Positions 4,759 to 19,078 of a DNA stretch of 20,727 bases are shown here, piece by piece. Made by a program: the position numbers and the translations under genes. The notes under the pieces are model-generated. The model did not search any database. It worked only from the letters and a program-made list of their open reading frames with translations, and was not told where the DNA came from. Source of the stretch: a virus; the IMG/VR virus record IMGVR_UViG_3300035698_000685, positions 1-20,727 of that record; one strand, 5' to 3'. Position 1 is the first letter of the stretch; each line of letters opens with the position of its first letter.

Positions 4759-5712
4759 TTAGGTGAGAAGCGTCTTCGCCCAATCTTCGGAACGCTGGGT
4801 TTGGATCGCTCGATTTTTGCGGGCTTTCTGAGCGGCCTTCGGGTTGGCGGCTTTGGTTGCGCCGGGCTTCAAAACCGGACGCGCGCCTTCCACTTTTTTA
4901 TGGCCTTTGGCAGTCGATGATTTCAGTGCCTGATAGCGTGCTGCATCATTGAGAAGTGCCAGTGCGCGGGCATCCATCACGCCTTTGACCTCGGCTTCAT
5001 CGAAGCCGTAGGCACCCGCCGCGCTCACTAAATCCCGCATGATCTTGGGTGCCTTTTCGGCGTCCCCAAGTTCCGGGATCAGTTCCACCGCGCGTTGCCG
5101 CTGTTCTTGCATGTAGGCGTTGTGTGCCTGCTTTTGCTGCGCGTCGTTTTGCGCCTGCAACTGTTGCAAAGAACCCTGCTGCTGCTGATACCGGGACAGG
5201 TCGTTTTGGTAACGTGCCTGTTCCTGCATCCAGCCAATCGGGTCTTGATCTGCGTCAATTTGTGGTGGTTGTGGCGGGTGTGCGATGTTGCCTGACCGCA
5301 AGGCTTCAAAAGCCTGCAAAACGGCCTGTCGCTCAGATTGAAGGGTTTGGGCCTGCTGCTGATACTGCTTTGCAGCCTCGGCGTTTTTGGTCATTCCCTT
5401 CTGGACGTAATCCTGCCCCGCGTAGCCTCTGACAAGTTCTTCGTAAGGTACCTGCTTTTCTACCCCGTCCACCTTTACGGTGTGGAGTTGCGCAGGGCTT
5501 TCGTCGGCCTCGTCATCGCTATCATCGTCGGCGTCGGTTTCGTCCTCGTCATCGGTTGAGGCGTCAGCCTCGTCATCCGTTTCCGTCTCTACGTCTTCGG
5601 CTTCGGTCTGGTCTTCAGATACCTCGTCCGCTTCTGTTTCGGTTTCCTCGGATTGGTCCATCACAAGGGATTGCGCCACTTGCTCTGTCGTCATCGGTTC
5701 AGTCGCTTGCAC
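4759..5712 (-). CDS. Capsid scaffolding protein
   Basis: The product is 317 residues, in the usual place between portal and capsid genes. It has three parts: a very acidic low-complexity N-terminus (about residues 19-72, nearly all Asp, Glu, Ser, Thr and Ala), a short domain HTVKVDGVEKQVPYEELVR followed by a Gln-rich coiled coil (about 110-215), and a basic C-terminus (about 268-312). The VDG-VPY-EL-RGYAGQDY motif is typical of podovirus scaffolds. A basic end that contacts the capsid and an acidic end that can be expelled fit such a role. The start is GTG with AAAGGT seven bases upstream, overlapping the preceding gene by 14 bases. An ATG at codon 7 is an alternative. Confidence 0.88.
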   Translation of the reverse strand: MQATEPMTTEQVAQSLVMDQSEETETEADEVSEDQTEAEDVETETDDEADASTDDEDETDADDDSDDEADESPAQLHTVKVDGVEKQVPYEELVRGYAGQDYVQKGMTKNAEAAKQYQQQAQTLQSERQAVLQAFEALRSGNIAHPPQPPQIDADQDPIGWMQEQARYQNDLSRYQQQQGSLQQLQAQNDAQQKQAHNAYMQEQRQRAVELIPELGDAEKAPKIMRDLVSAAGAYGFDEAEVKGVMDARALALLNDAARYQALKSSTAKGHKKVEGARPVLKPGATKAANPKAAQKARKNRAIQTQRSEDWAKTLLT

Positions 5713-5956: not shown

Positions 5957-8005
5957 TTAGTATTGGCGGGGCTGCGCCTGCATTTGCTGGATTGGTGCTG
6001 CCATTTGTGGCTGCGGTGCCTGCCCGTATTTCATAAAGAACTCGCCCGCCTTGAAGGTGGCGTCCTGTTCCATCTGGTCGCGTTTCAGGTCGTCTTCGGC
6101 CCGCAGCTTCACAACATCGCGCTGGTGCTTTTGCTCGGCTTCCTGCGCGCGCTGCCGCGCCTTCATTTGCTCTGCTTGAAGGAATGCCGCGTTGGGGTCG
6201 GACCCTTGCTGCTGTTGCGTCGCTGCCTGCTGTTGCGCCTGAATAAGCTGCTGCTCTGTCTCAGGGTTCATTGGCTGGTAATAGCGGTCAGAGTTGTGCA
6301 GTCCTGCCAGCGCCAGACGGTCCTCAAGCGCGTTGCGGATGCCCGTCATGGTCACAAGCCCATTGCTGGGTCCGTAGCCCTGCCAGATTGCCTGCTGCGT
6401 CTGGATGGTTTGATCCAGCGCCATTGCGCGTTCGGCCTTCTGTCCGGTGCCAAGACCCACGTTGGTTGACACGTCCATTTCCGCATTCCAGCCGCTCGGA
6501 TCGACTGGCACGAAATTGCCCGACAGGCGCATGAATTCGCCCGGCGGGACATTCTTGCGGATCAGCTTGAACATCAGCTTAAACAGCCGCTTATAGCCGC
6601 CCTCGGCCAAGTGCCGCGCCATCAGTTCGACGGTTGATTGCGCCGCCTGCACCATTGCGTTCGCGCCAACAACGGTCTGGCTTTGCAGTGCGTCGGCATT
6701 CATGCCCATGCCCGCCTGTGCAACGCCTGTTTTGGCATCCACGGTCATGTCAAAATATTGCATCGCGGGAAGTGCCGCCATTGCGGTGTTTGGCGCTGAA
6801 AACTCCATGATATCGGCTGCTGGGTTTTCGCACTCGATCAGCGCGCCGTATTCGTTGTTGAGCAGCGCCTCCACATCCACGCGGTCGCGCGCATATGCCG
6901 TCTTCGGGTTGTTCGACATGTGAACACCGTCGATCAGGCCGCGCAGCAGGGATGTGCCTACGTTCTGGTCTTCGATGATCAGATCCACGAGGCTGCGGCC
7001 AAAGAAGGTATGCGGTTCGGGGTCAATCTCAAACACGGCAAACGGCACATCATCGGCCAGTTCGTAATCCAGCATTTTGTAGTCAGAACCGCCGCACATG
7101 AATTTGTAGAGCCGCGCAATTCCGGTGCCTTCAATGTCCATCCGCATGTAAGCTTCTGTCAGCGTGACAGGCTTCATGGATGGATCGCCGTTGTCGGTGT
7201 CATTGTCGGTATCGTCGCGGCGCTCGTAATCGGCTTCTTTTTCGCTTTCGGTGCCAAGTTCCGCGACCTCTGCCGCGTCAAAGCCCATTTCCACCAGATC
7301 AGTGACGCGCTTGTCCTCGGAGTGGCCGACAATGTAGAAGTCCTCCATTCCGGTGGCGTTGGCATCCACAAAGAAGTTCTCCGGCGGAACCGTCTTGATC
7401 CGCAATTCGCCGGATGTGTTAGTGCGCGAAACCTTCATATCGTGCAGCGTGATGGGCTGCGCCCCTTGCGGCGTCTGGATCATTGATTGAACTGGCGAAT
7501 GCTCCACGACCTTCACGTCATCGGGGGCCAGGATCATGCCGACTTCTTCTTCGGTCAGGTTGGTATATTCGTCGATTTCGACCGTTTCGGTTTCATCCCA
7601 ATACGTCTTGGCAATGCCCGTTTTTGACACAAGCGCATCATGGAACACGCTGTGTAGCGTCGTGAAACCGCCGCTCTGGTCGAACTTCCACGTTGCATAG
7701 TCCGTCGCCTGATCCGCGCCCGCCACGTCATCCGGGCCGCGCGGGATGAACTCCGCAGGCTTTTCAGACTGCAAGAATATCCGCATCAGGACAGGCATAA
7801 CGGATCGCACCGCGTTTCGGCATTTGGTGCTGACTACCTTGGAGCGGTCAGATTCAAACGACAGATCAGTTTCGCCATTGAAGTATCGCATCGCCTTGAT
7901 GCGCTCCGCCTCAACCTCGTTTGTAACGTGGTCCTTGGCGTCAGTGATGGCGCGCTTGAGGATGGCGTTGATCTGATCGTCTGTTTTTTTGGTTTTTTCG
8001 GCCAT
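5957..8005 (-). CDS. Portal protein
   Basis: The product is 682 residues, within the usual 600-750 of P22-like portals. The portal forms the dodecameric ring through which terminase packs DNA. Visible parts are a helical N-terminus with YFNGETDLSFESDRSKVVSTKCRNAV, a wing/stem region with KTGIAKTYWDETETVE and KTVPPENFFVDANATG, the central FGRSLVDLIIEDQNVGTSLLRGLIDG stretch, and a Gln-rich tail (about the last 90 residues) ending QPQMAAPIQQMQAQPRQY. A Gln-rich helical end could form a barrel like that of P22. ATG at 8005 is chosen over the longer frame to 8056, because GGAG lies five bases before it and the longer version would be translated through the terminator at 8018-8043. Confidence 0.93.
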   Translation of the reverse strand: MAEKTKKTDDQINAILKRAITDAKDHVTNEVEAERIKAMRYFNGETDLSFESDRSKVVSTKCRNAVRSVMPVLMRIFLQSEKPAEFIPRGPDDVAGADQATDYATWKFDQSGGFTTLHSVFHDALVSKTGIAKTYWDETETVEIDEYTNLTEEEVGMILAPDDVKVVEHSPVQSMIQTPQGAQPITLHDMKVSRTNTSGELRIKTVPPENFFVDANATGMEDFYIVGHSEDKRVTDLVEMGFDAAEVAELGTESEKEADYERRDDTDNDTDNGDPSMKPVTLTEAYMRMDIEGTGIARLYKFMCGGSDYKMLDYELADDVPFAVFEIDPEPHTFFGRSLVDLIIEDQNVGTSLLRGLIDGVHMSNNPKTAYARDRVDVEALLNNEYGALIECENPAADIMEFSAPNTAMAALPAMQYFDMTVDAKTGVAQAGMGMNADALQSQTVVGANAMVQAAQSTVELMARHLAEGGYKRLFKLMFKLIRKNVPPGEFMRLSGNFVPVDPSGWNAEMDVSTNVGLGTGQKAERAMALDQTIQTQQAIWQGYGPSNGLVTMTGIRNALEDRLALAGLHNSDRYYQPMNPETEQQLIQAQQQAATQQQQGSDPNAAFLQAEQMKARQRAQEAEQKHQRDVVKLRAEDDLKRDQMEQDATFKAGEFFMKYGQAPQPQMAAPIQQMQAQPRQY

Positions 8006-8017
8006 GCTGGCTCCAAT

Positions 8018-8043
8018 AAAAAAGCCACCCCGAAGGATGGCTT
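8018..8043 (-). terminator. UUCG-loop terminator hairpin just upstream of the portal gene
   Basis: On the minus strand AAGCCATCC and GGGTGGCTT pair over nine positions (one G-U) around a TTCG tetraloop, followed by TTTTATTGG. The T-tract makes this a strong intrinsic terminator. It lies after the ejection-protein genes and only 13 bases before the portal start. It would separate the tail/ejection message from the head message, unless antitermination operates. The bases after it hold the portal ribosome-binding site, as in the hairpin at 3273-3294. Confidence 0.8.
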
Positions 8044-8070
8044 GATTTTCGCGCAAACTTTGCGCATATC
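8042..8070 (+). promoter_or_regulatory. Perfect 7-1-7 palindrome, candidate operator
   Basis: GCGCAAA and TTTGCGC form a perfect dyad around one base at 8051-8065, in the only sizeable gap inside the late operon. On the plus strand it lies in a 17-base spacer between a TTGATT (8042-8047) and a CATATC (8065-8070), which is a weak match to a sigma-70 promoter. That promoter would drive the small plus-strand ORF at 8077. It could equally be an operator for a leftward promoter of the head genes. The dyad is certain; any function is inferred. Confidence 0.35.
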
Positions 8071-8076
8071 TGTCAG

Positions 8077-8175
8077 ATGGACAGCATATTTTATGTGATA
8101 GCGGTTTGTGCTTTAGGGCTTATTGCCTACGGCCTGATCGCGCTCGTGGGTTTCACGGCGTTTTCTATTTTCTAG
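8077..8175 (+). CDS. Candidate 32-residue membrane peptide on the opposite strand
   Basis: An ATG-initiated plus-strand ORF fills the gap between the ejection-protein gene and the portal terminator. It encodes 32 residues that are almost all hydrophobic (MDSIFYVIAVCALGLIAYG, then a second half ending TAFSIF), enough for one transmembrane helix. Its TAG overlaps the TAG of the minus-strand gene in the palindrome CTAG at 8172-8175. There is no clear ribosome-binding site, and third-position GC is lower than in neighbouring genes, so chance is a real alternative. The gap does not encode anything comparable on the minus strand. Confidence 0.35.
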   Translation: MDSIFYVIAVCALGLIAYGLIALVGFTAFSIF

Positions 8176-9806
8176 TTCCCGAATAGGGAAAGGATGCCCG
8201 GCATGGTTGGCGCTGACTGCATAACTGTGCCTGCCGGGTTCCGCATCATTGATTGGACCGGGTTGCTGCGCATAAGCGATTGCCCCATGAATGGGATGGT
8301 GGCAGCGCCTATCCCCGCAGCAGCCATGCCAGCCGGACCAAGCCCCGCGCCGTAACCCATAGCTGCGCCGCCTGTTGCCAGCGCTGCGGGTAGCGCTTCG
8401 GTGATAGTGCGCGCGCCGCCGGGATTGACTGATGGTGCAGGACGTAGAACCGCCGCACCAGACCGGGTGAAGTCGCCCATCGGGGTTGTGCGGCCTGTGG
8501 CGTATGCTTCGCGGCCTTGCGCCCTAATAAGTGACTGATTGAGTTGAGTAGGCGAAAGAGTGCCGCCTTCCGCCCCCGCCCGCGATGCCGCATCGCGAAC
8601 CCCAATAAAGTTCCGATAGGTTTCCCGCGCGGATTTCAGATTAGCAATATCGTCAACACGCCCGGCGGCTGTCAAACCTGTGTCTGTCATATCGTCCACG
8701 AGAGAACGCAAACCATGCGCCGCCTCCCGCGTTGCGGCGTCCGGTGAAACCGTCATCTTGCCAATATCAGACCGCCATTTTTTAAGATGCGACAGCGGAA
8801 CCGGAGTATTCGACCTTGAGAACGCGGCAATTTCATTGGCAATCCCGCGAATACGAGGGGTCAAACTGCCTTGCGGAACTCTCTCAGTATAATCCGCAGC
8901 GACCTTAATAGCAGCCCGATAAGCGCCGCTATCTGGAATGATTGACACGCCTGCAACGGCGTCGTCCATACGCTTTACAATCGCTTCACTTGCGCTTTTG
9001 AGCGCCGCAGGCGTCGCCACTTTGTCAGTGCTGCCAATCTGGCGCATGGCCGAAGCCGTGAAGTCGTCAAGCTGGCTGTTTGTAGGCGCTAGACGCCCTT
9101 CAAGGCGCATAAGTTGCTGTGAATTTCTCGCCTGCCCCACGGTAAGCCCGCGCACACCTTCGTCCTGCAACTTATTCGCCATCCGCGTGGCTTCGTCCGC
9201 ACCGTTGAACGCGCCCGGTTTGGGCGCGGCTGCGATGGACGCGCCTAGCGCTGCACCGACGCGGGCATAAGGCTCCGCCGCCGTGCCTTCTGTCGCTTGA
9301 CCTGCCGCTTCGCTCGCCAAGCCGGGGATAGCCCCATAACGCAACATTGCGCCCGGCCCAGCCGCAGCCCCCGCGCCGCCTGCGAATTCACCCACTGTCG
9401 ATATAAATTCGCCCACCTTACCGGGAGCTTTGAACCTGCTTTCCTCGCCAATAACGGGAACGGCCCCAAGCATGTCGCGCGTGTCTGGCAGCTTATTCAA
9501 GGCACGGGAAACCATAGAAGGGCTTTCCATTCCCGCTGCTTTCTCAACGCCCATCGTTGCTAACTGTGCGAGATTTGCGGGGATGGCAGGAACGTCAGCA
9601 ATACCTCGGGCCACAGCCGCCGTGCCGCCCCTGATAGCCGTTCCCAACTTTTCGCCCCAAGAGTTAACACCGTCATCTGTACCGACTATGTTGTCTTTAA
9701 TGCGTCCCGCAAACGACATATCTGCATCCGCGCCCGCCGTTGATGCGTATTTGCTCCACGGGCCTGCTGATGCCTGACTTTTGTACTTCTCCCAAGGTCC
9801 GGCCAT
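8172..9806 (-). CDS. Internal virion (ejection) protein with GPW repeats
   Basis: The product is 544 residues. The N-terminus contains a 12-residue tandem repeat (AGPWEKYKSQAS, then AGPWSKYASTAG), a motif often seen at the start of large phage ejection proteins. The middle is helical (about 200-420). Two regions are rich in Gly and Ala and hydrophobic (about 145-195 and 475-515, for example GLGPAGMAAAGIGAATIPF), which could insert into the host membrane. Proteins of this kind leave the capsid with the DNA and help it cross the cell envelope. The ATG overlaps the upstream stop as TAATG. Assignment rests on repeats, composition and position among the other ejection-type genes, not on a named family. 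Confidence 0.75.
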   Translation of the reverse strand: MAGPWEKYKSQASAGPWSKYASTAGADADMSFAGRIKDNIVGTDDGVNSWGEKLGTAIRGGTAAVARGIADVPAIPANLAQLATMGVEKAAGMESPSMVSRALNKLPDTRDMLGAVPVIGEESRFKAPGKVGEFISTVGEFAGGAGAAAGPGAMLRYGAIPGLASEAAGQATEGTAAEPYARVGAALGASIAAAPKPGAFNGADEATRMANKLQDEGVRGLTVGQARNSQQLMRLEGRLAPTNSQLDDFTASAMRQIGSTDKVATPAALKSASEAIVKRMDDAVAGVSIIPDSGAYRAAIKVAADYTERVPQGSLTPRIRGIANEIAAFSRSNTPVPLSHLKKWRSDIGKMTVSPDAATREAAHGLRSLVDDMTDTGLTAAGRVDDIANLKSARETYRNFIGVRDAASRAGAEGGTLSPTQLNQSLIRAQGREAYATGRTTPMGDFTRSGAAVLRPAPSVNPGGARTITEALPAALATGGAAMGYGAGLGPAGMAAAGIGAATIPFMGQSLMRSNPVQSMMRNPAGTVMQSAPTMPGILSLFGN

Positions 9807-11407
9807 TACTGCACCTTCGTCCAGTTATTTTGATCACCGGGGTCGCCGCCGTTGAACGTATAGCCCTCGACAACATCCCCGGCACTTGGGCCACCTTCGT
9901 TAGGTGCAACCCCCATCAAAAGACGCTTCATTTCGGGCGACATGATTGACTGCCCGTCAATCTCGGAAACCATCTTGCGCGCCTCGACTGCTGTCAATTC
10001 GCCATTCTGGTATTGCTGAATAACTTGCCCGCGCTGCATGTTGATTTGTGCCTTAGACTTCATCACCTGAGAAATAAGCGCGTTAGCCTCTGGCTTGTTT
10101 ATGAGGGATGGAAGGCTTCGCAGCATACCAGTATATTCAATGTCAGACGTGGAGCCTGACCCCTCCGCCCGCATCGTTGGCGCGATCCGTTTCACGATTG
10201 AGTTGAAAGCATCCCCCGCGCTATTCACTCCGGGGAAAGTTTCGGCCAATCGCCCACTGATCGGGCCTTGCGGCGCAAGCTGTATCAACTCGTCCAATAC
10301 CTGAAAATCCTGACCCAACGAAGACGACGCATTGCCCATCTTCAAGTAAGTTCCCCAGAGAGCGCCTTCGTCTTTATTCAGTTCTTTGCGCAGGTCCGCG
10401 TCGGCGGGCGTACCATCGCTGTTGTTGACGTTGACTGTAGAATTTGACGCCCCGGAGCGCTTCAATTCCATCTGGTAATCCATCAGGGTGCCTTTGTAGC
10501 CTTGCTGCACCGCCTGCGCGTATTGCTGCTGCACCGCCGTTTGATCCGGCCCCTTGTTCTGCGCCTGCCACATCTGCAAGCCCGCGCTTGCTGGCAATGC
10601 GCCGCTGGCAATGGCCTGCCCGTACTGCGCGCCGCCCGGCTGTTGCATCAGCCATTCAGCCGTCACGATGCGCTGCTTCGCATCCTTGGCATCAGAAGCC
10701 CGCGTATCGCGGCGCTTGTCGATGCTATCCATAACCCGCGTGTTTGCCCCGGTGACGGACAGACTGCCAAGGTTGGCAAGCCCGTAGCGAATGCTTTCGC
10801 GGGTTTCCTCATCCATGTTTGGAAACATGCGGCCCAAAATGCCACGCGGTTGTTGCTGCTGCATGGGTTCCCCCTGAAGGTTGTCGTTGCCTGCGCTGCC
10901 TAGCAAAGACAGAATGCCCCCGCTGCCTTTTGGCTCTGGCTGCGGTGCCTTGCCAATCGCGGCCATCGTCTGGTCCGCAATGGCTTGGTTTGGCTTCGAT
11001 TTGCGCCCGGCGTCAGCAAAACCGAAAACGTGGTTGCCGATTTTCTGCCAATCGTCGCCGTTTCTCTGGCCCCATTTCGGGTTCGCCACCGCAGGATTGT
11101 AGTAGTGCGTTGCGCCGCCTGTCGGATCTTCATATTGCCCGGACAACAGCGTGTCTGCCGCCTGATAGGCTGTCGCGCTTGGCCGCATGTTCTGCATATC
11201 CAAGCCGCCCTGACCGCTTGCATATCCTGTAACGCCGTTCCATGCGGAGAACTGCCCCGGCTTCATGATTACGCCGCTCAGCCCGTCGCCATAACCGCCA
11301 TTCTTGACCCGGTTGTTGATGACCGATCCAGCAGCCAGCATCCCCTGCAACCCCTCGCCCCCGGCTTCCGCCATGAGGGTTCGGGCGAGAAGTTCGCGCG
11401 GGTCCAT
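9806..11407 (-). CDS. Ejection-type virion protein with N-terminal SleB-like wall hydrolase
   Basis: The product is 533 residues. About residues 5-130 match the SleB / Hydrolase_2 cell-wall hydrolase fold: LLARTLMAEAGGEGLQGM with probable catalytic Glu14, then VINNRVKNGGYGD, a GVI-KPGQFSAWN segment, GGATHYYNPAVANPKWG and IGNHVFG. Such enzymes cut peptidoglycan as lytic transglycosylases or amidases. The rest is a long Gln/Ala/Gly-rich helical region without a recognised domain. A virion enzyme of this type would open the peptidoglycan locally during DNA entry, unlike the lysis endolysin at 1495-2037. The ATG directly follows the TAA of the preceding gene. The stop overlaps the next start. Confidence 0.85.
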   Translation of the reverse strand: MDPRELLARTLMAEAGGEGLQGMLAAGSVINNRVKNGGYGDGLSGVIMKPGQFSAWNGVTGYASGQGGLDMQNMRPSATAYQAADTLLSGQYEDPTGGATHYYNPAVANPKWGQRNGDDWQKIGNHVFGFADAGRKSKPNQAIADQTMAAIGKAPQPEPKGSGGILSLLGSAGNDNLQGEPMQQQQPRGILGRMFPNMDEETRESIRYGLANLGSLSVTGANTRVMDSIDKRRDTRASDAKDAKQRIVTAEWLMQQPGGAQYGQAIASGALPASAGLQMWQAQNKGPDQTAVQQQYAQAVQQGYKGTLMDYQMELKRSGASNSTVNVNNSDGTPADADLRKELNKDEGALWGTYLKMGNASSSLGQDFQVLDELIQLAPQGPISGRLAETFPGVNSAGDAFNSIVKRIAPTMRAEGSGSTSDIEYTGMLRSLPSLINKPEANALISQVMKSKAQINMQRGQVIQQYQNGELTAVEARKMVSEIDGQSIMSPEMKRLLMGVAPNEGGPSAGDVVEGYTFNGGDPGDQNNWTKVQ

Positions 11408-13369
11408 TTAAGCGAACCCCGCCAGCGCGCCCAGAATGCCCAGAATGCCGGGGTTTGTGGATTGCGTGGTTGTGCCGCCGCCTCCCGGCATGGCGCCAAG
11501 CGATCCGACAAGCTGCTTTAGCGCGTCCTCCGGCGATCCGGTGAAGTCGCCATACTGCCCTTTTGCGGCGTTGATAAGCGCCTGCTGCATGGCCTGCACC
11601 TGCCCGCCTTGCTGCATCTGCTGGTCTGTGATGGTGTTGCCCATGCCAAAGCCAAGGTTGCTGAGATTGCCAAGCTGCTGCGCGCCCGACATGGCGTTGC
11701 CGAACTGCTGTTGTCCGTACTGATTTTTCGCACCTGCGTTCCACTGGCCCGCAGTATTGGCAGCGTTCAAATTCTCAGACACGCGGGAATTGTTGGCGGC
11801 TGCGTTATTGCCTGACACGCCCGTCATGTTGCCTGCGTTCCACTGGCCTGCGCTGTTGGAAGCGCCTTGGTTTGAGGATGCGGCCCCCTGTTGCTGGCCT
11901 GCATTGAACTGCGAATTCGCCATGTTCCCGGCCTGCCCGGTCATGTTGTTGCCCGCGTTATACTGGCCCATGTTGTTCGTGGCACCAGCATTCCACTGGC
12001 TTGCACCCTGCTGTTGGCCCGCATTGAACTGGTTGTTTTGCAGGTTCGCGATCATTTCTTGGATCGTGCTGCCTGCGTTGAACTGCCCCATATTATTTGA
12101 CGCACCTGCGTTCCACTGATTTGCGCCCTGCTGATTTCCTGCATTGAACTGCGATGCGTTGTTCATAAACCCCAGATTGCCGCTGGTCATGGAGTTTTTT
12201 TGGCCTGTGTTGAACTGGCCCGCCTGATTGAGCGATGCCATGTTGGCAAGTCCGAATTGGTCGGACGCATTCGCATTCGCAGCACTTGCAGCCGTATCCG
12301 CACCGAATTGGCTCAACCCAAAGTTGTTGCTTGCCGCTGCATTCCCCGCGTTTGCCCCGGTGCCTAGCTGTGCATTGAGAGCCGATGCAGCGTTCCCGGC
12401 GGATGCCCCGAACTGGCTGGCCTGCTGATCGAGATTGGCTTGGGAAAGTGACCGATTGTTGCGCGCCGCTGCGCCAAACTCTGCCGCCCGGTTGGAGGCG
12501 TCCATGTCGCGCCCGCCGACCTGCAAGCCCGCCTGCTGGTTTGCGCTTGATGCGTCAAACCGCTTGCCAATGTCAAACTGCGCCGAATTCAGGGCGGTGT
12601 TATACCCATCCATGTTCATGCGCGCGGTATTGCGTCCCACTTCTTCGGTGAAGTTGCGGTTTTGCTCCGCCTCAACCAAACCATGCCGCGATCCGCCGAA
12701 AGCCTTCGCCGCCGATGCCTGCGACCCGATTTGGTTCATCAGCATCTGGTTGGTGCGGCCCGCCTCGTTATTCGTGTTTTGAATGACCTGCTGCGTGTAG
12801 GGATTCATGTATTGCGACATGTCGGTATTCGACAACTGCCCCGCGCTGATGTTCTGCAAGTCGCCCCGGTCAAAGCTGCTGGCCCCATAGCCGCTTGACG
12901 GGTCAATCTGCGCCGCGTTGAACCCTTGTGATCCGGCCTGCTCTGCCCCGTAGGTAGCCGCCGGGCCTAGATTGCCCGCGCTGTATCCTGTTGCCTGCCC
13001 GGTGGCCGCGTCATAGCCTGCCGCCTGTCCTGTGGCGGCCTGCATCTGCGCGGCGTTCATTGTGGATGTGCCGACTTGCGGTGCGTTGCCCATGCCTAGC
13101 GATGTGCTGGCGTTCATCTGCGCCGTGCCGACCGTGGGCGCGTTGATCTGCGCGTTGGACCCGTAGGAATTCATCATCGCTGGGTTGTATGTCGTGGCCT
13201 GCTGCTGACTGGCTGGCCCGCCAAATTGGGGGTTGTATTGCGCCGCCTGCCCGTTGGCGTTTGCCGCCAGCGCGCCGTTTACTTGCCCCAGCGCGCCGCC
13301 GTATGCCCCCGCCGATTGCCCATAGATATTCGGCTGCGCAAGTTGCGCAGGGTTTTGTGCTTGAGCCAT
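11408..13369 (-). CDS. Large Asn/Gln/Ala/Gly-rich repeat protein, putative ejection protein
   Basis: The product is 653 residues and very low in charge. A more complex central part (about 183-265: MSQYMNPYTQQVIQ, SAAKAFGGSRHGLVEAEQN) looks conserved in phage virion proteins. Around it lie low-complexity regions. Residues 385-546 hold ten copies of Q-(F/W/Y)-N-(A/T)-G. The C-terminus is a Gly-rich hydrophobic tail (GILGILGALAGF). AAGGA lies upstream of the ATG. Its place before the SleB-fusion and GPW-repeat genes suggests a subunit of the ejected internal complex that forms a conduit into the cell. The function is inferred. A tail structural role is possible. Confidence 0.75.
   Translation of the reverse strand: MAQAQNPAQLAQPNIYGQSAGAYGGALGQVNGALAANANGQAAQYNPQFGGPASQQQATTYNPAMMNSYGSNAQINAPTVGTAQMNASTSLGMGNAPQVGTSTMNAAQMQAATGQAAGYDAATGQATGYSAGNLGPAATYGAEQAGSQGFNAAQIDPSSGYGASSFDRGDLQNISAGQLSNTDMSQYMNPYTQQVIQNTNNEAGRTNQMLMNQIGSQASAAKAFGGSRHGLVEAEQNRNFTEEVGRNTARMNMDGYNTALNSAQFDIGKRFDASSANQQAGLQVGGRDMDASNRAAEFGAAARNNRSLSQANLDQQASQFGASAGNAASALNAQLGTGANAGNAAASNNFGLSQFGADTAASAANANASDQFGLANMASLNQAGQFNTGQKNSMTSGNLGFMNNASQFNAGNQQGANQWNAGASNNMGQFNAGSTIQEMIANLQNNQFNAGQQQGASQWNAGATNNMGQYNAGNNMTGQAGNMANSQFNAGQQQGAASSNQGASNSAGQWNAGNMTGVSGNNAAANNSRVSENLNAANTAGQWNAGAKNQYGQQQFGNAMSGAQQLGNLSNLGFGMGNTITDQQMQQGGQVQAMQQALINAAKGQYGDFTGSPEDALKQLVGSLGAMPGGGGTTTQSTNPGILGILGALAGFA
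11732..12217 (-). repeat. Q-aromatic-N-A-G repeat array inside the 653-residue gene
   Basis: Ten Q-(F/W/Y)-N-(A/T)-G motifs are spaced 22, 11, 11, 18, 11, 11, 18, 22 and 33 residues apart. An 11+11+18 block of 40 residues occurs in tandem, starting at 12151 and 12031, with a third, altered copy from 11911. At the DNA level this is a 120-bp imperfect repeat. It could expand or shrink by recombination or slippage. Confidence 0.85.
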
Positions 13370-13380
13370 GTGATTTTCCT

Positions 13381-14235
13381 TTAGAAAAAGCCGAAAAGGC
13401 CCTTGCCGGGTTCTTTGCCAAGAGCGTTGCTTACGCCCCCGAACGCGCCGCCGAACTTATCGCCGCTCGTTCCCGGCCCGCCGCCGTCAAACATATCGCC
13501 AAGGCCAGAATAACCGCCGAACCCGCCGAACCCGTTGGTGCCTGCACCGCCACCACCACCGTAGCCGTGGTCCGCTGCGCCACCGCCGCCACGGTTGCTG
13601 AATGCCTCAAGTATCCCTTGGATCATCTCAGCTTGCTGTGTGTCCGCCTGCGGTGCCGCGCCTGTCTGGGGGTTGATAAACGGCGCGTTGATTGCGTCGT
13701 ATTGCCCCGGATTGCGCTGCTGCAATTCCGCCTTGGCGCTTTCAAACATCGGCGCGCTGGAATAGCCGCGCACACCGTTGAATGTGCCGGGCATTGTCAG
13801 TCCCGTCAGCGGGTCCATGCGGGTTCCCGCCGCGAAGTCATTGGCGAATGTCTCCGGGTTGTAATTCTGCATCCAGAAGTCGAAGCCAGCCTGATCGGGG
13901 TCGCGCCCCAACTGATTTCGGTACGCGTCTGAAATGGTCCGCGCCGCGTCTGGGTTGCCGTATTGCGAAGGATCAATCGGAGCCGTCATGCCATTGATCT
14001 GCGCCAGCGGGTCTGATTGCGGCGTCTGCATTCCAAACGCGCTGGCCGCGCCCGCAGTGTTGCGCATTGCGCTTTCCTGCAAGGGCGACAGCGCTGCAAC
14101 ATCTGGCCCGTAATACGGCACATGGCCGATTTTGGATGCCTCCTGAGAACGGCCAATCGTGTATTTACTGGCGTCTTCGAGATATTGCGGGATTTTGCTT
14201 TCGCTCGTTTGCGATCCGCTAAACATTTTGCCCAT
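13381..14235 (-). CDS. Putative virion protein with DUF4214-like motif and Gly-rich tail
   Basis: The product is 284 residues. The N-terminal third (MGKMFSGSQTSESKIPQYLE ... GPDVAALSPLQESAMRNTAG) resembles the start of small phage virion proteins with ejection roles. Around residues 101-135 a motif ISDAYRNQLGRDPDQAGFDFW matches the DUF4214 pattern (Y-R-LGR-PD-G-W) seen in surface and S-layer-associated proteins. From about 214 on it is Gly/Phe-rich (GGFGGYSGLGDMF, GKGLFGFF). The ATG follows the preceding TAA directly. It lies first among the four putative internal-virion genes. It may be a virion component that contacts the envelope. This is inferred, not shown. Confidence 0.75.
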   Translation of the reverse strand: MGKMFSGSQTSESKIPQYLEDASKYTIGRSQEASKIGHVPYYGPDVAALSPLQESAMRNTAGAASAFGMQTPQSDPLAQINGMTAPIDPSQYGNPDAARTISDAYRNQLGRDPDQAGFDFWMQNYNPETFANDFAAGTRMDPLTGLTMPGTFNGVRGYSSAPMFESAKAELQQRNPGQYDAINAPFINPQTGAAPQADTQQAEMIQGILEAFSNRGGGGAADHGYGGGGGAGTNGFGGFGGYSGLGDMFDGGGPGTSGDKFGGAFGGVSNALGKEPGKGLFGFF

Positions 14236-14601
14236 TTAGAACTCCTTCACCAGCACGGTTGATTGCTCCGCCCAGCCATGTTTTTTGAATGCCCGCACCC
14301 AGCCGCGCCGTCCGGTAATCACGGCCTCAGTGCAGCCTTGTGTTTTCGCCCATGCGATTACGTCGCGGTGCATGTCGGCCAGTTGGTCCAACTCGCCACC
14401 GCCTAAGAATACGTCTAGGACCGTCTTTCGCGGGAATGCGACAATCTCAGTAACCAGACAGCCGCGCGGAGCAGGCCACAACTGCATGACGCCCGTTCCG
14501 ATTGCCGCCGCCACATCATCGAAGCTGTGCGTTCCGCCGTTGTGGGCGAGTGCTGCCTCAATCCACGGCCTACAGCGCTGAAGTTGACAAGGTGCCTGCA
14601 T
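14236..14601 (-). CDS. GNAT-like phage protein in the virion gene cluster
   Basis: The product is 121 residues. The pattern HSFDDVAAAIGTGVMQLWPAP, LVTEIVAFPRKTVLDVFLGGGELDQL, then DVIAWAKTQGC-EAVITGRRGWVRAFKKHGW matches small phage proteins with an acetyltransferase-like (GNAT) fold. They are found among the tail and head genes of many podoviruses. Their enzymatic activity is unproven, and they may be structural or regulatory. ATG at 14601 is chosen because GAGGTGG lies just upstream; a TTG at 14616 has no such site. The gene overlaps the end of the preceding one by 32 bases and abuts the next one (TAA-ATG). Confidence 0.85.
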   Translation of the reverse strand: MQAPCQLQRCRPWIEAALAHNGGTHSFDDVAAAIGTGVMQLWPAPRGCLVTEIVAFPRKTVLDVFLGGGELDQLADMHRDVIAWAKTQGCTEAVITGRRGWVRAFKKHGWAEQSTVLVKEF

Positions 14602-14761
14602 TATCCACCTCAACAACGTAAAGCGTCCCGTCCGGGCTGGTCAGGATGACCCGGCCCGGCGCAACGTATATATCGCGCGCCTTCTTGTGGTTCTCGCTGT
14701 CCGCTTGCTCGATTGTTCGCCGCTCATTCGGGCCAAGGTTGGCGCTTAGCGGTAGTTTCAT
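14570..14761 (-). CDS. Small conserved tail-region protein (63 aa)
   Basis: The product is 63 residues. It has a short helical N-terminal half (MKLPLSANLGPNERRTIEQA) and a C-terminal beta region (DIYVAPGRVILTSPDGTLYVV, then EVDNAGTLSTSAL). The V-L-SPDGT-Y-V-VDNAG-L-T pattern recurs in small phage virion proteins that follow the gp10-like gene. The ATG at 14761 overlaps the stop of the gp10-like gene as ATGA, and the longer upstream in-frame start would only extend into that gene. A tail accessory or trimeric adhesin-like role is plausible but not shown. Confidence 0.8.
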   Translation of the reverse strand: MKLPLSANLGPNERRTIEQADSENHKKARDIYVAPGRVILTSPDGTLYVVEVDNAGTLSTSAL

Positions 14762-18282: not shown

Positions 18283-18467
18283 TACACATCAACCCATGTT
18301 TCGGCATTCGCCGCTGCCGCCGACCAAGGCAAAAGAACGCCCCAGATCAGTTTGTTGCCGGAATCGTCCAGCAGTGCATTGCTGCTTTCATCCAACATCT
18401 GAATTTCGCCGCCTACTGCCACATCGCCCCATTGCTCAGCATTGGCGCTGGCATCGGTCCAGGTCAT
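18282..18467 (-). CDS. Small protein with duplicated W-x-ANAE-W-DV motif
   Basis: The product is 61 residues. It begins WTDASANAEQWGDV and ends WSAAAANAETWVDV, an internal near-duplication that flanks a central QMLDESSNALLDDSGN stretch. Small proteins of this form occur among phage tail genes next to fibre genes. The ATG overlaps the stop of the adaptor gene as ATGA, and its stop overlaps the fibre start as TAATG, which supports translation. A short spacer or tail-tip component is plausible, but no function is known. Confidence 0.75.
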   Translation of the reverse strand: MTWTDASANAEQWGDVAVGGEIQMLDESSNALLDDSGNKLIWGVLLPWSAAAANAETWVDV

Positions 18468-19078
18468 TTACGCACCCGCTTGCGCTTGCCCGCGCCGCCA
18501 TACTTGCCAGCCTCGCCGTCCGCGTTCAGCCGCGCAATGCCCTGCCCGTAGAGCGCGCCCCACGTTTGAATGCGCGCGTCCTCTTGCAGAAACGGCGCTG
18601 AATGCACCAGCGATCCGTAGAGGTACACATCCGGCGCGTTTACCAGCAGCCAATTGCTTGTGTTGCCGTCCGACAGTGCCGGAATGGTGGCGCGGTAAAG
18701 AAGCGTTGCCGTGGTGGATGATGTTGGCGTTGGGAAGAACTCGAATTCATTACCGACCAGCGCGTAGAAACACGGCGTTCCGGTGTTGTCGTCAGCCGCC
18801 GCGCGTCTGTCGTGCATGTCCTGGACGCTGATTGGCTGCATTGGCGCATCGGTTGTGCCGACCTGAAACCGGATCGGCGCAACAAAGTCCGTTGGCACCG
18901 CAGAGAACCGCGCGTCAATCGTGGCTGTGGCCCTCTTTTCACGCCGCCAATGCTTTACGTCGCGCTGCGCGTTGGCCTCACATAGCGCAATCCAATCGGC
19001 TACGTATGCGGCCAGATCATCGCGGTTAAGCGTGCTGGCGATGGCCGTTTGCAGTTCCGCGTAGGTGCTAAGTGCCAT
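18464..19078 (-). CDS. Head-tail adaptor (SU10-type phage adaptor protein)
   Basis: The product is 204 residues. The N-terminus STYAELQTAIASTLNRDDLAAYVADW, then IALCEANAQRDVKHWRREKRAT, matches the SU10-type adaptor family. These adaptors form a ring below the portal and connect it to the tail. The middle is beta-rich (VPTDFVAPIRFQVG, FYALVGNEFEFFPTPTSSTT) and a C-terminal basic tail (GKRKRVRK) may contact DNA or the portal. Together with the SU10-type capsid protein it supports a common origin of the head-tail connector genes. The ATG directly follows the terminase stop as TAG-ATG. Confidence 0.85.
   Translation of the reverse strand: MALSTYAELQTAIASTLNRDDLAAYVADWIALCEANAQRDVKHWRREKRATATIDARFSAVPTDFVAPIRFQVGTTDAPMQPISVQDMHDRRAAADDNTGTPCFYALVGNEFEFFPTPTSSTTATLLYRATIPALSDGNTSNWLLVNAPDVYLYGSLVHSAPFLQEDARIQTWGALYGQGIARLNADGEAGKYGGAGKRKRVRK

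Follow-up and report, generated by a model that had tools for sequence, protein, structure and literature searches.

The 20,727-base virus record IMGVR_UViG_3300035698_000685, a fragment of 20.7 kb that is taken here whole and called the window, encodes a 653-residue protein at positions 11408..13369 of the minus strand, on which the window genes and protein features located below also lie. Judged by family and gene position, this open reading frame (ORF) is probably an ejection-type virion protein, and it carries a long segment built on hendecads, units of 11 residues. Its conserved core, YMNPYT..V ... AxAFGGSR (residues 174–304, 12458..12850), is common to named phages; the AFGGSR motif within the core (residues 223–228, 12686..12703) lies between two predicted helices and serves as the anchor of the modulo-11 measurement described below. 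Beyond the core follow a continuous helix predicted by AlphaFold2 (residues 226–350, 12320..12694), ten Q[FWY]N[AT]G motifs (residues 385–546, 11732..12217) and a conserved C-terminal motif, LINAAKGQYGDFTGSPEDAL (residues 598–617, 11519..11578), whose Y606 is the second anchor.

The ten motifs start at residues 385, 407, 418, 429, 447, 458, 469, 487, 509 and 542, and their steps of 22, 11, 11, 18, 11, 11, 18, 22 and 33 residues are exactly those listed in a first-pass annotation made from the sequence alone. In 10,000 shuffles of the protein, the motif occurred 0.02 times on average and at most once, against the ten observed. The tandem super-repeat of 40 residues (120 bp) that the same annotation described is also present: a first unit with aromatics in an 11-11-18 arrangement (residues 407–446, 12032..12151) is followed by a second (residues 447–486, 11912..12031) that is identical to it at 25 of 40 amino acids and 80 of 120 nucleotides, and by a partial third (residues 487–514, 11828..11911) sharing 20 of 28 amino acids with the second. 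Tandem Repeats Finder at score 50 did not report the 120-bp super-repeat of the window, which is therefore not a fresh tandem copy.

The window protein on its own does not establish a helix. By simple arithmetic, only a step of 18 returns exactly on an ideal helix of 3.6 residues per turn; a step of 11 drifts by 20 degrees, and without supercoiling of the helix an aromatic stripe would therefore wind slowly. When the 20 aromatics in residues 270–580 of this single sequence were scanned by Fourier analysis, no helical period was significant: power was 3.6 to 5.1 at 3.60–3.67 residues, the null maximum averaging 5.8, and the top peak, 9.06, fell at 5.73 residues (null 95%, 7.75; 99.9%, 10.9). 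The argument for a helix therefore needs the protein family, and the lattice presented below is significant only family-wide.

We gathered family members by three pattern scans of IMG/VR, each contributing the best 80 of at least 418, at least 483 and at least 496 relatives, respectively. The resulting 232 ORFs were reduced to 170 members by removing duplicates by core, a sample that is biased towards the conserved core. ORFs of the family range from 212 to 1,288 residues, the longest being L218:2729-6592 (1,288 residues), L144:2984-6205 (1,074 residues) and L220:4001-7114 (1,038 residues). Among 50,697 phage records, residues 174–304 of the window protein found matches in eight, all below 60% identity. 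The closest relative, L002 (818 residues), has a 66-residue insertion (six units) in the repeat segment; apart from this, its alignment through the motifs is free of gaps. Nine of the ten motif aromatics are in register, and the spacing is thus kept in this relative.

Across the family, the distance between the two anchors is quantised. We defined the spacer as running from the A of AFGGSR to the Tyr or Phe of the C-terminal motif, both anchors being found in 94 of the 170 distinct cores. The spacer equals 2 modulo 11 in 76 of these 94 members, over lengths of 101 to 508 residues, with nine others at −7, three at +7, two at −14 and four elsewhere. The window protein, whose Y606 lies 383 residues from A223, falls in the +7 class together with L002 (449) and L049 (317). 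The main class also holds 24 of 35 representatives chosen at less than 70% core identity; for the other moduli from 5 to 25, the best class contains 14 to 43% of the same representatives, except for 22 at 51%. Counting distinct spacer lengths instead of proteins, 20 of 29 are in the class. Length differences behave alike: among 31 disjoint pairs with core identity of at least 60% and unequal length, which are similar proteins and not sisters on a tree, the difference is a multiple of 11 in 23 (a multiple of 22 in 17), and the other eight pairs leave 7 (six pairs) or 3 (two pairs) modulo 11, the latter as 14 does. Another collection has both anchors in 4 of 17 loci, three in the class and one at −7. 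As a control, the N-terminal and C-terminal tails of the same proteins show no preferred modulo-11 class (largest share 15% and 17%), the N-terminal lengths resting on mechanical start codons. A literature search covering titles, the beginnings of abstracts and few subscription journals found no report of an ejection protein quantised in 11-residue steps.

Residue types hold fixed positions within the spacer. For phase statistics, positions were counted from the core modulo 11 in 17 of the 35 representatives (2,074 residues), after dropping 11 outside the main class and seven with short spacers. Aromatics reach 35% at phase 9 and at most 5% at any other phase; Ala reaches 87% at phase 6 and 72% at phase 2, and Asn 60% and 58% at phases 4 and 10. 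The frequency of Pro is 0.00 at every phase, and charged residues amount to 9% at one phase and no more than 4% elsewhere. Phases 9, 2 and 6 are spaced 4, 4 and 3 apart, which is the usual hendecad coiled-coil pattern; plotted at three turns per 11 residues, they fall by arithmetic into an apolar strip at 164, 196 and 229 degrees. The mean directions among class members, 219 degrees for Ala, 291 for Gly, 43 for amides and 88 for large apolar residues, show modest concentration (0.22 to 0.48), and Leu and Met at other phases draw the large apolar mean towards the amide side.

The window protein, which is outside the 17, follows the same lattice. F265, F298 and F320 in the predicted helix, together with F386, F408, W419 and F430, occupy phase 9; these are 7 of the 13 aromatics up to residue 431 (P = 5e-5), and the motifs therefore continue a lattice begun near the core. 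For the six motif aromatics that follow, the shift is 7 in the first three and 14 in the final three. Charged residues make up 2.1% of the pooled family segment, and the window is less pure, with 30 of 381 residues charged at 226–606, where Asn and Gln account for 30% and Ala and Gly for 32%. The helix-compatible spacing that the first reading had seen in one protein is thus backed by an 11-residue lattice across the family.

At the DNA level, the duplication unit of the family is 33 or 66 bp. Tandem Repeats Finder run on 169 family genes gave 140 arrays in 58 genes (rows can overlap), 70 of them downstream of the core, meaning that they start after it and may lie in the C-terminal tail. All 44 downstream arrays with a period above 30 bp have a period of 33, 66, 99, 132 or 198 bp, 66 bp accounting for 25; the remaining 26 have periods of 12 to 30 bp. 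Upstream of the core, where another 70 arrays lie, 6 of the 21 with a period above 30 bp are multiples of 33 bp. In all, 41 of the 169 genes carry tandem DNA copies beyond the core. Growth by duplication, as proposed from the window alone, is supported by these arrays; the choice of 120 bp as the unit is not, because the downstream arrays make the 120-bp unit of the window an exception in its family. Periods of the upstream arrays are most often 15 and 30 bp, and 2 of 80 representatives match Pfam Decapeptide.

We modelled the window protein as a monomer with AlphaFold2 from 29 family sequences. The model contains no strand and no confident disorder in place of the proposed helix; with the spacing kept in L002, the outcome that the first-pass annotation had named as refuting was therefore not seen. 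Its N-terminal 170 residues are unstructured; helices span residues 190–220 and 226–350, the latter with block pLDDT values of 76–89 over 231–340 and 64 at its end. Weaker helices are predicted at 362–427 (pLDDT 53 to 68) and 493–606 (50 to 76), with a short one at 435–445. A monomer model of a 250-residue relative is all helical with a mean pLDDT of 60. Both models are of limited confidence and, as monomers, argue neither for nor against an oligomer. Searched against BFVD, the window model gave seven matches at E ≤0.001, none informatively named, with TM-scores of 0.12 to 0.34; entries named ‘Internal virion protein’ and ‘Tape measure protein’ appeared at E of about 1 to 2.3 only and were not used. 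At 1.5 Å per residue, residues 226–606 (381 residues) would measure about 570 Å in one piece. The usual periplasm is narrower than this, and folding back or several helices are therefore likelier than one rod.

Gene order suggests what the protein is for. In three records that match the core, a hub or stabilisation-type gene precedes this gene (with an acetyltransferase gene between them in two), and the next gene is labelled as an internal virion protein, as a cell wall hydrolase or, with a note on peptidoglycan hydrolase, as a tail tape measure protein. This is the order typical of ejection proteins, after the tail hub and before hydrolase, internal virion or injection genes. In the window, the gene directly downstream (9806..11407) has a cell wall hydrolase domain (Hydrolase_2, E 1.5e-23) and probably encodes a further ejection protein; the 544-residue product of the gene after it (8172..9806), which has no Pfam or PHROG family match, is by its position probably another. 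Protein 27 of phage phiM5 carries the core, as can be read directly, and its record notes it as ‘detected in phage particle proteome’; three genes for putative internal virion proteins follow, also noted as detected in the particle. Its E-value of 4.8e-98 against the family hidden Markov model (HMM) is inflated, as the HMM alignment includes L209, whose N-terminal sequence is nearly identical, and its membership therefore rests on the visible core. Two further candidates, phiGT1_17 and EPV2_27, were left out, since their HMM matches are weak (E 4.7e-8 and 1.8e-8) and end in the S74 region and both proteins lack AFGGSR.

Family profiles point the same way. PHROG 4287, named ‘DNA ejection protein’, is matched by 48 of 80 representatives, the window protein being counted among the 80. 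Of ten members in which the extent of the match was followed, six match from profile position 10 or earlier to 315 or later of 392, two match partially and two do not match. The window protein shares its core with L003, L005, L006 and L007, which match profile positions 1–4 to 317–386 of 392 (L006 weakly, E 4.6e-5), and a PHROG 4287 member such as the Ochrobactrum phage vB_OspP_OH protein (L005) resembles it in both the AFGGSR core and gene position. Its place and its family would accordingly make the 653-residue protein the first of a group of ejection (internal virion) proteins. An S74 intramolecular chaperone domain ends many relatives and hints at a trimeric stage, S74-like ends being present in L003, L004, L005 and L061. 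When the 94 measured members are divided by S74, assigned by regular expression, the median spacers are 134 (42 members) and 168.5 (52 members).

The remaining genes of the window suggest the type of phage. Its structural module comprises the large terminase, an SU10-type adaptor (18464..19078; PF24175, E 1.8e-33), an SU10-type portal protein (5957..8056; PF23899, E 1.6e-178), the major capsid protein, a scaffold protein and a lysozyme-type endolysin. Portal, adaptor and capsid genes of SU10 type make a short-tailed phage probable; no tail tube, tail chaperone or major tail protein gene was found among the scanned ORFs, several of which are matchless, some small ORFs being outside the scan. 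The best named matches of the terminase include EBPR podovirus 2 (59.8%) and the podovirus phiGT1 (53%), and those of the portal are Octadecabacter Antarctic DB virus 2 (49%), then phiM5 and others. One relative with the same core bears the record title ‘Myoviridae sp.’, contrary to a short tail; we take this label as automatic. The host is probably Gram-negative. The 17 genome contigs with relatives are titled as Alphaproteobacteria (nine), Gammaproteobacteria (three) and other groups (five), several of them being metagenome assemblies.

On balance we consider it fairly probable, with substantial doubt remaining, that the 653-residue protein is the first ejection protein of a short-tailed phage and that its long hendecad helix packs into a DNA conduit. 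The segment is most likely alpha-helical, built on hendecads of three turns each, and in the family it grows and shrinks mostly by whole steps of 11 (often 22) residues, with some steps of 7. Such steps would keep the faces of the helix aligned all the way from AFGGSR to the C-terminal motif. Each unit has an apolar strip (aromatic or Ala, then Ala and Ala, at 4-4-3 spacing) and, facing away from it, a side rich in amides. After leaving the head, copies most likely pack together into a helical bundle or tube that would take DNA through the envelope and whose length would depend on the unit count. The phase-locked segment would then probably be part of an ejected DNA conduit; a trans-envelope conduit, one of two possibilities suggested at first reading, remains the likeliest on the strength of gene order and PHROG 4287.

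The tube of the phiX174 H protein is the best solved analogue of a helix that could carry DNA. According to PMC7354561, H delivers DNA through a solved decameric tube of 170 Å in which hendecads are joined to heptads and the lumen lining consists mostly of amides and guanidinium groups. The likeness lies in the hendecads and the amide-rich helices; the difference is that the window family offers monomer predictions, and spacers of up to 508 residues, instead of a decameric tube. In gene order, the window protein is comparable to T7 gp14 and P22 gp7 (P22 order: gp10, gp26, gp14, gp7, gp20, gp16), each the first ejection gene after the hub and an acetyltransferase-like gene. Proteins like gp14 have 181–240 residues according to PMC8954989, against 212 to 1,288 for ORFs of this family.

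Several results weigh against the conduit. In the model, pLDDT is low over the motif region (42–64 at residues 381–520, 69–76 at 521–550) and no structure is assigned at 446–492 (pLDDT 42 to 51); the aromatics may line one face of a very long helix, as suggested at first reading, but the model backs a helix well at 226–350 and weakly over the motifs. No sequence-profile match was found in the PDB, and a PDB fold search with the model of L088, a short relative, gave no match. The window protein has no Pfam match at E up to 0.01, and neither it nor L002 matches any PHROG family at E up to 10; the PHROG 4287-matching members examined have 257–468 residues, compared with 653 and 818 for these two. 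Part of the 48 PHROG 4287 matches may, moreover, rest on the S74 end, L061 matching this profile from residue 367 on only, in its second half. A peptidoglycan hydrolase domain is present in the next large ORF at no more than 13 of 73 loci, the window included. Profile comparison of the 35-member alignment with the single sequences of T7 gp14 and P22 gp7 gave a probability of 0.1%, and homology to T7 gp15 and P22 gp20, again as single sequences, was undetectable, so that the likeness to gp14 and gp7 is one of gene order. The C-terminal motif is missing in 76 of 170 members (10 are cut at the 3′ end), 14 of which have a looser second anchor, with 8 of these 14 sharing one class. The short relatives L004, L006, L076 and L088 lack repeats when read by eye, and most of the length is therefore dispensable within the family. 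Finally, in the tape measure protein (TMP) of phage TP901-1, replacing one repeat with 6 or 11 alanines had little effect, as described in PMC5099701, which in that analogue speaks both against a strict step length and against the aromatics. As a whole, the interpretation in the first-pass annotation is partly supported.

TMPs follow a similar rule. Units of 11 residues and a mixed aromatic pattern, 11-11-18, are described for them by Belcaid and others (PMC3271669). Mahony and others (PMC5099701) refer to a repeat of 40 residues in phage p2, put forward a total of 29 repeats, each of 11 or 18 residues, for TP901-1 and describe deletions in its TMP that shorten the tail. The p2 and TP901-1 proteins resemble the window protein in aromatics 11, 11 and 18 residues apart, a 40-residue super-repeat and a variable number of repeats: F408, W419, F430, F448, W459, Y470 and F488 form such an 11-11-18 arrangement and agree with pattern 2 of PMC3271669 if Tyr is allowed at one place (Y470), and the TP901-1 TMP sequence has 11-11-18 matches beginning at 492, 532 and 737, with 40 residues from the first to the second. 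Two 11-11-18 rounds occur in 1 of 170 family members, the window protein; three aromatic steps of 22 residues occur in 30 and three of 11 residues in five. The differences are as clear. Alignment by hhalign to the single TP901-1 TMP sequence gave a probability of 0.5%, with no sequence homology, that protein has 18% charged residues compared with about 2% in the Asn/Gln/Ala-rich family segment, and no long-tail genes were found beside the window gene among the ORFs scanned. With no similarity and a different composition, we therefore see the same physical rule and not membership among TMPs. Carried further, the protein could be a tape measure without a tail: copies would assemble after ejection into an amide-lined helical tube, the count of 11-residue units would determine its reach across the envelope, and the protein would be an evolvable ruler for the thickness of the host envelope under the physical rule of siphophage TMPs. 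We offer this as a tentative idea with a low chance of being right.

The first alternative to a conduit is that the protein belongs to the tail tip or a fibre, its segment forming the long trimeric coiled coil of a needle or fibre stalk and its S74 chaperone, in many members, the C-terminal end. Peptidase_S74 is known from trimeric fibres and spikes, and it is found in 30 of 80 representatives; a 4-4-3 hendecad core would suit a trimeric coiled coil equally, some relatives are labelled as a tailspike/chaperone or tail fiber domain protein, and several tail fiber PHROGs match some members. Yet neither the window protein nor 50 of the 80 representatives in all have an S74 match, the gene adjoins genes labelled internal virion, injection or hydrolase, and PHROG 4287 is named for DNA ejection. 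The S74 domain may in itself explain the ‘tail fiber’ and ‘tailspike’ labels, as in L061, which matches most tail PHROGs only over its S74 end. We regard a fibre as unlikely.

The segment could also be a low-complexity linker that varies by replication slippage, its 11-residue steps reflecting the duplicated unit and no structural constraint, with prion-like aggregation, the other suggestion of the first reading, as the extreme form. Its amide- and Ala/Gly-rich composition, the low pLDDT at 446–492, the tandem copies in the family genes and the Fourier null at helical periods in the single sequence would all fit. Slippage does not, however, account for position-specific phases in members with less than 70% core identity, which also disfavour a prion-like region, nor for exceptions that concentrate at 7 residues, another helical step; the lattice enters the better-predicted helix 226–350, and upstream arrays of the same genes use other periods. 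A linker is, in our assessment, quite unlikely. Least plausible, and very unlikely in our view, is a tape measure for assembly, a helix that measures or templates something in the head or core outside any conduit: the 11-11-18 aromatics and 40-residue super-repeat shared with the TMPs of p2 and TP901-1 favour it, but the scanned ORFs (with the matchless and unscanned ones noted above) hold no tail tube or chaperone gene, the TP901-1 TMP is dissimilar in sequence and charge, and the double pattern is confined to one member.

To our knowledge, how short-tailed phages bridge envelopes of different thickness is an open question, and most ejection proteins of environmental phages are without a structure. 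A segment whose length changes mostly in whole helical steps, over a several-fold range, gives a direct handle on this: the sequence shows how many units there are, units can be added or removed, and their number can be set against the width of the envelope. Should the phage be short-tailed, as its genes suggest, aromatics in the 11-11-18 arrangement of TMPs would not be only about measuring tails. The lattice and the AFGGSR core can also serve to identify a large set of environmental phage genes; some of these are now labelled ‘hypothetical’ or, probably through the S74 domain, ‘tail fiber’ or ‘tailspike’.

Upstream of the 653-residue ORF lies a gene for 284 residues (13381..14235) whose product is similar to the N-terminal domain that some family proteins have joined to the core (5 of 171 sequences, phmmer E 2e-7 to 3e-4); its middle has a DUF4214 match below the Pfam cut-off. 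This may be a gene split in the lineage of the window, or a paralogue. The next gene, for 126 residues (14236..14616), is by position roughly in the place of the acetyltransferase-labelled gene of relatives; it matches phrog_22172, of unknown function, and has no Pfam match above the cut-off. In the scaffold protein gene, the acidic N-terminal part contains an 18-bp tandem repeat in three copies (window positions 5504–5557).

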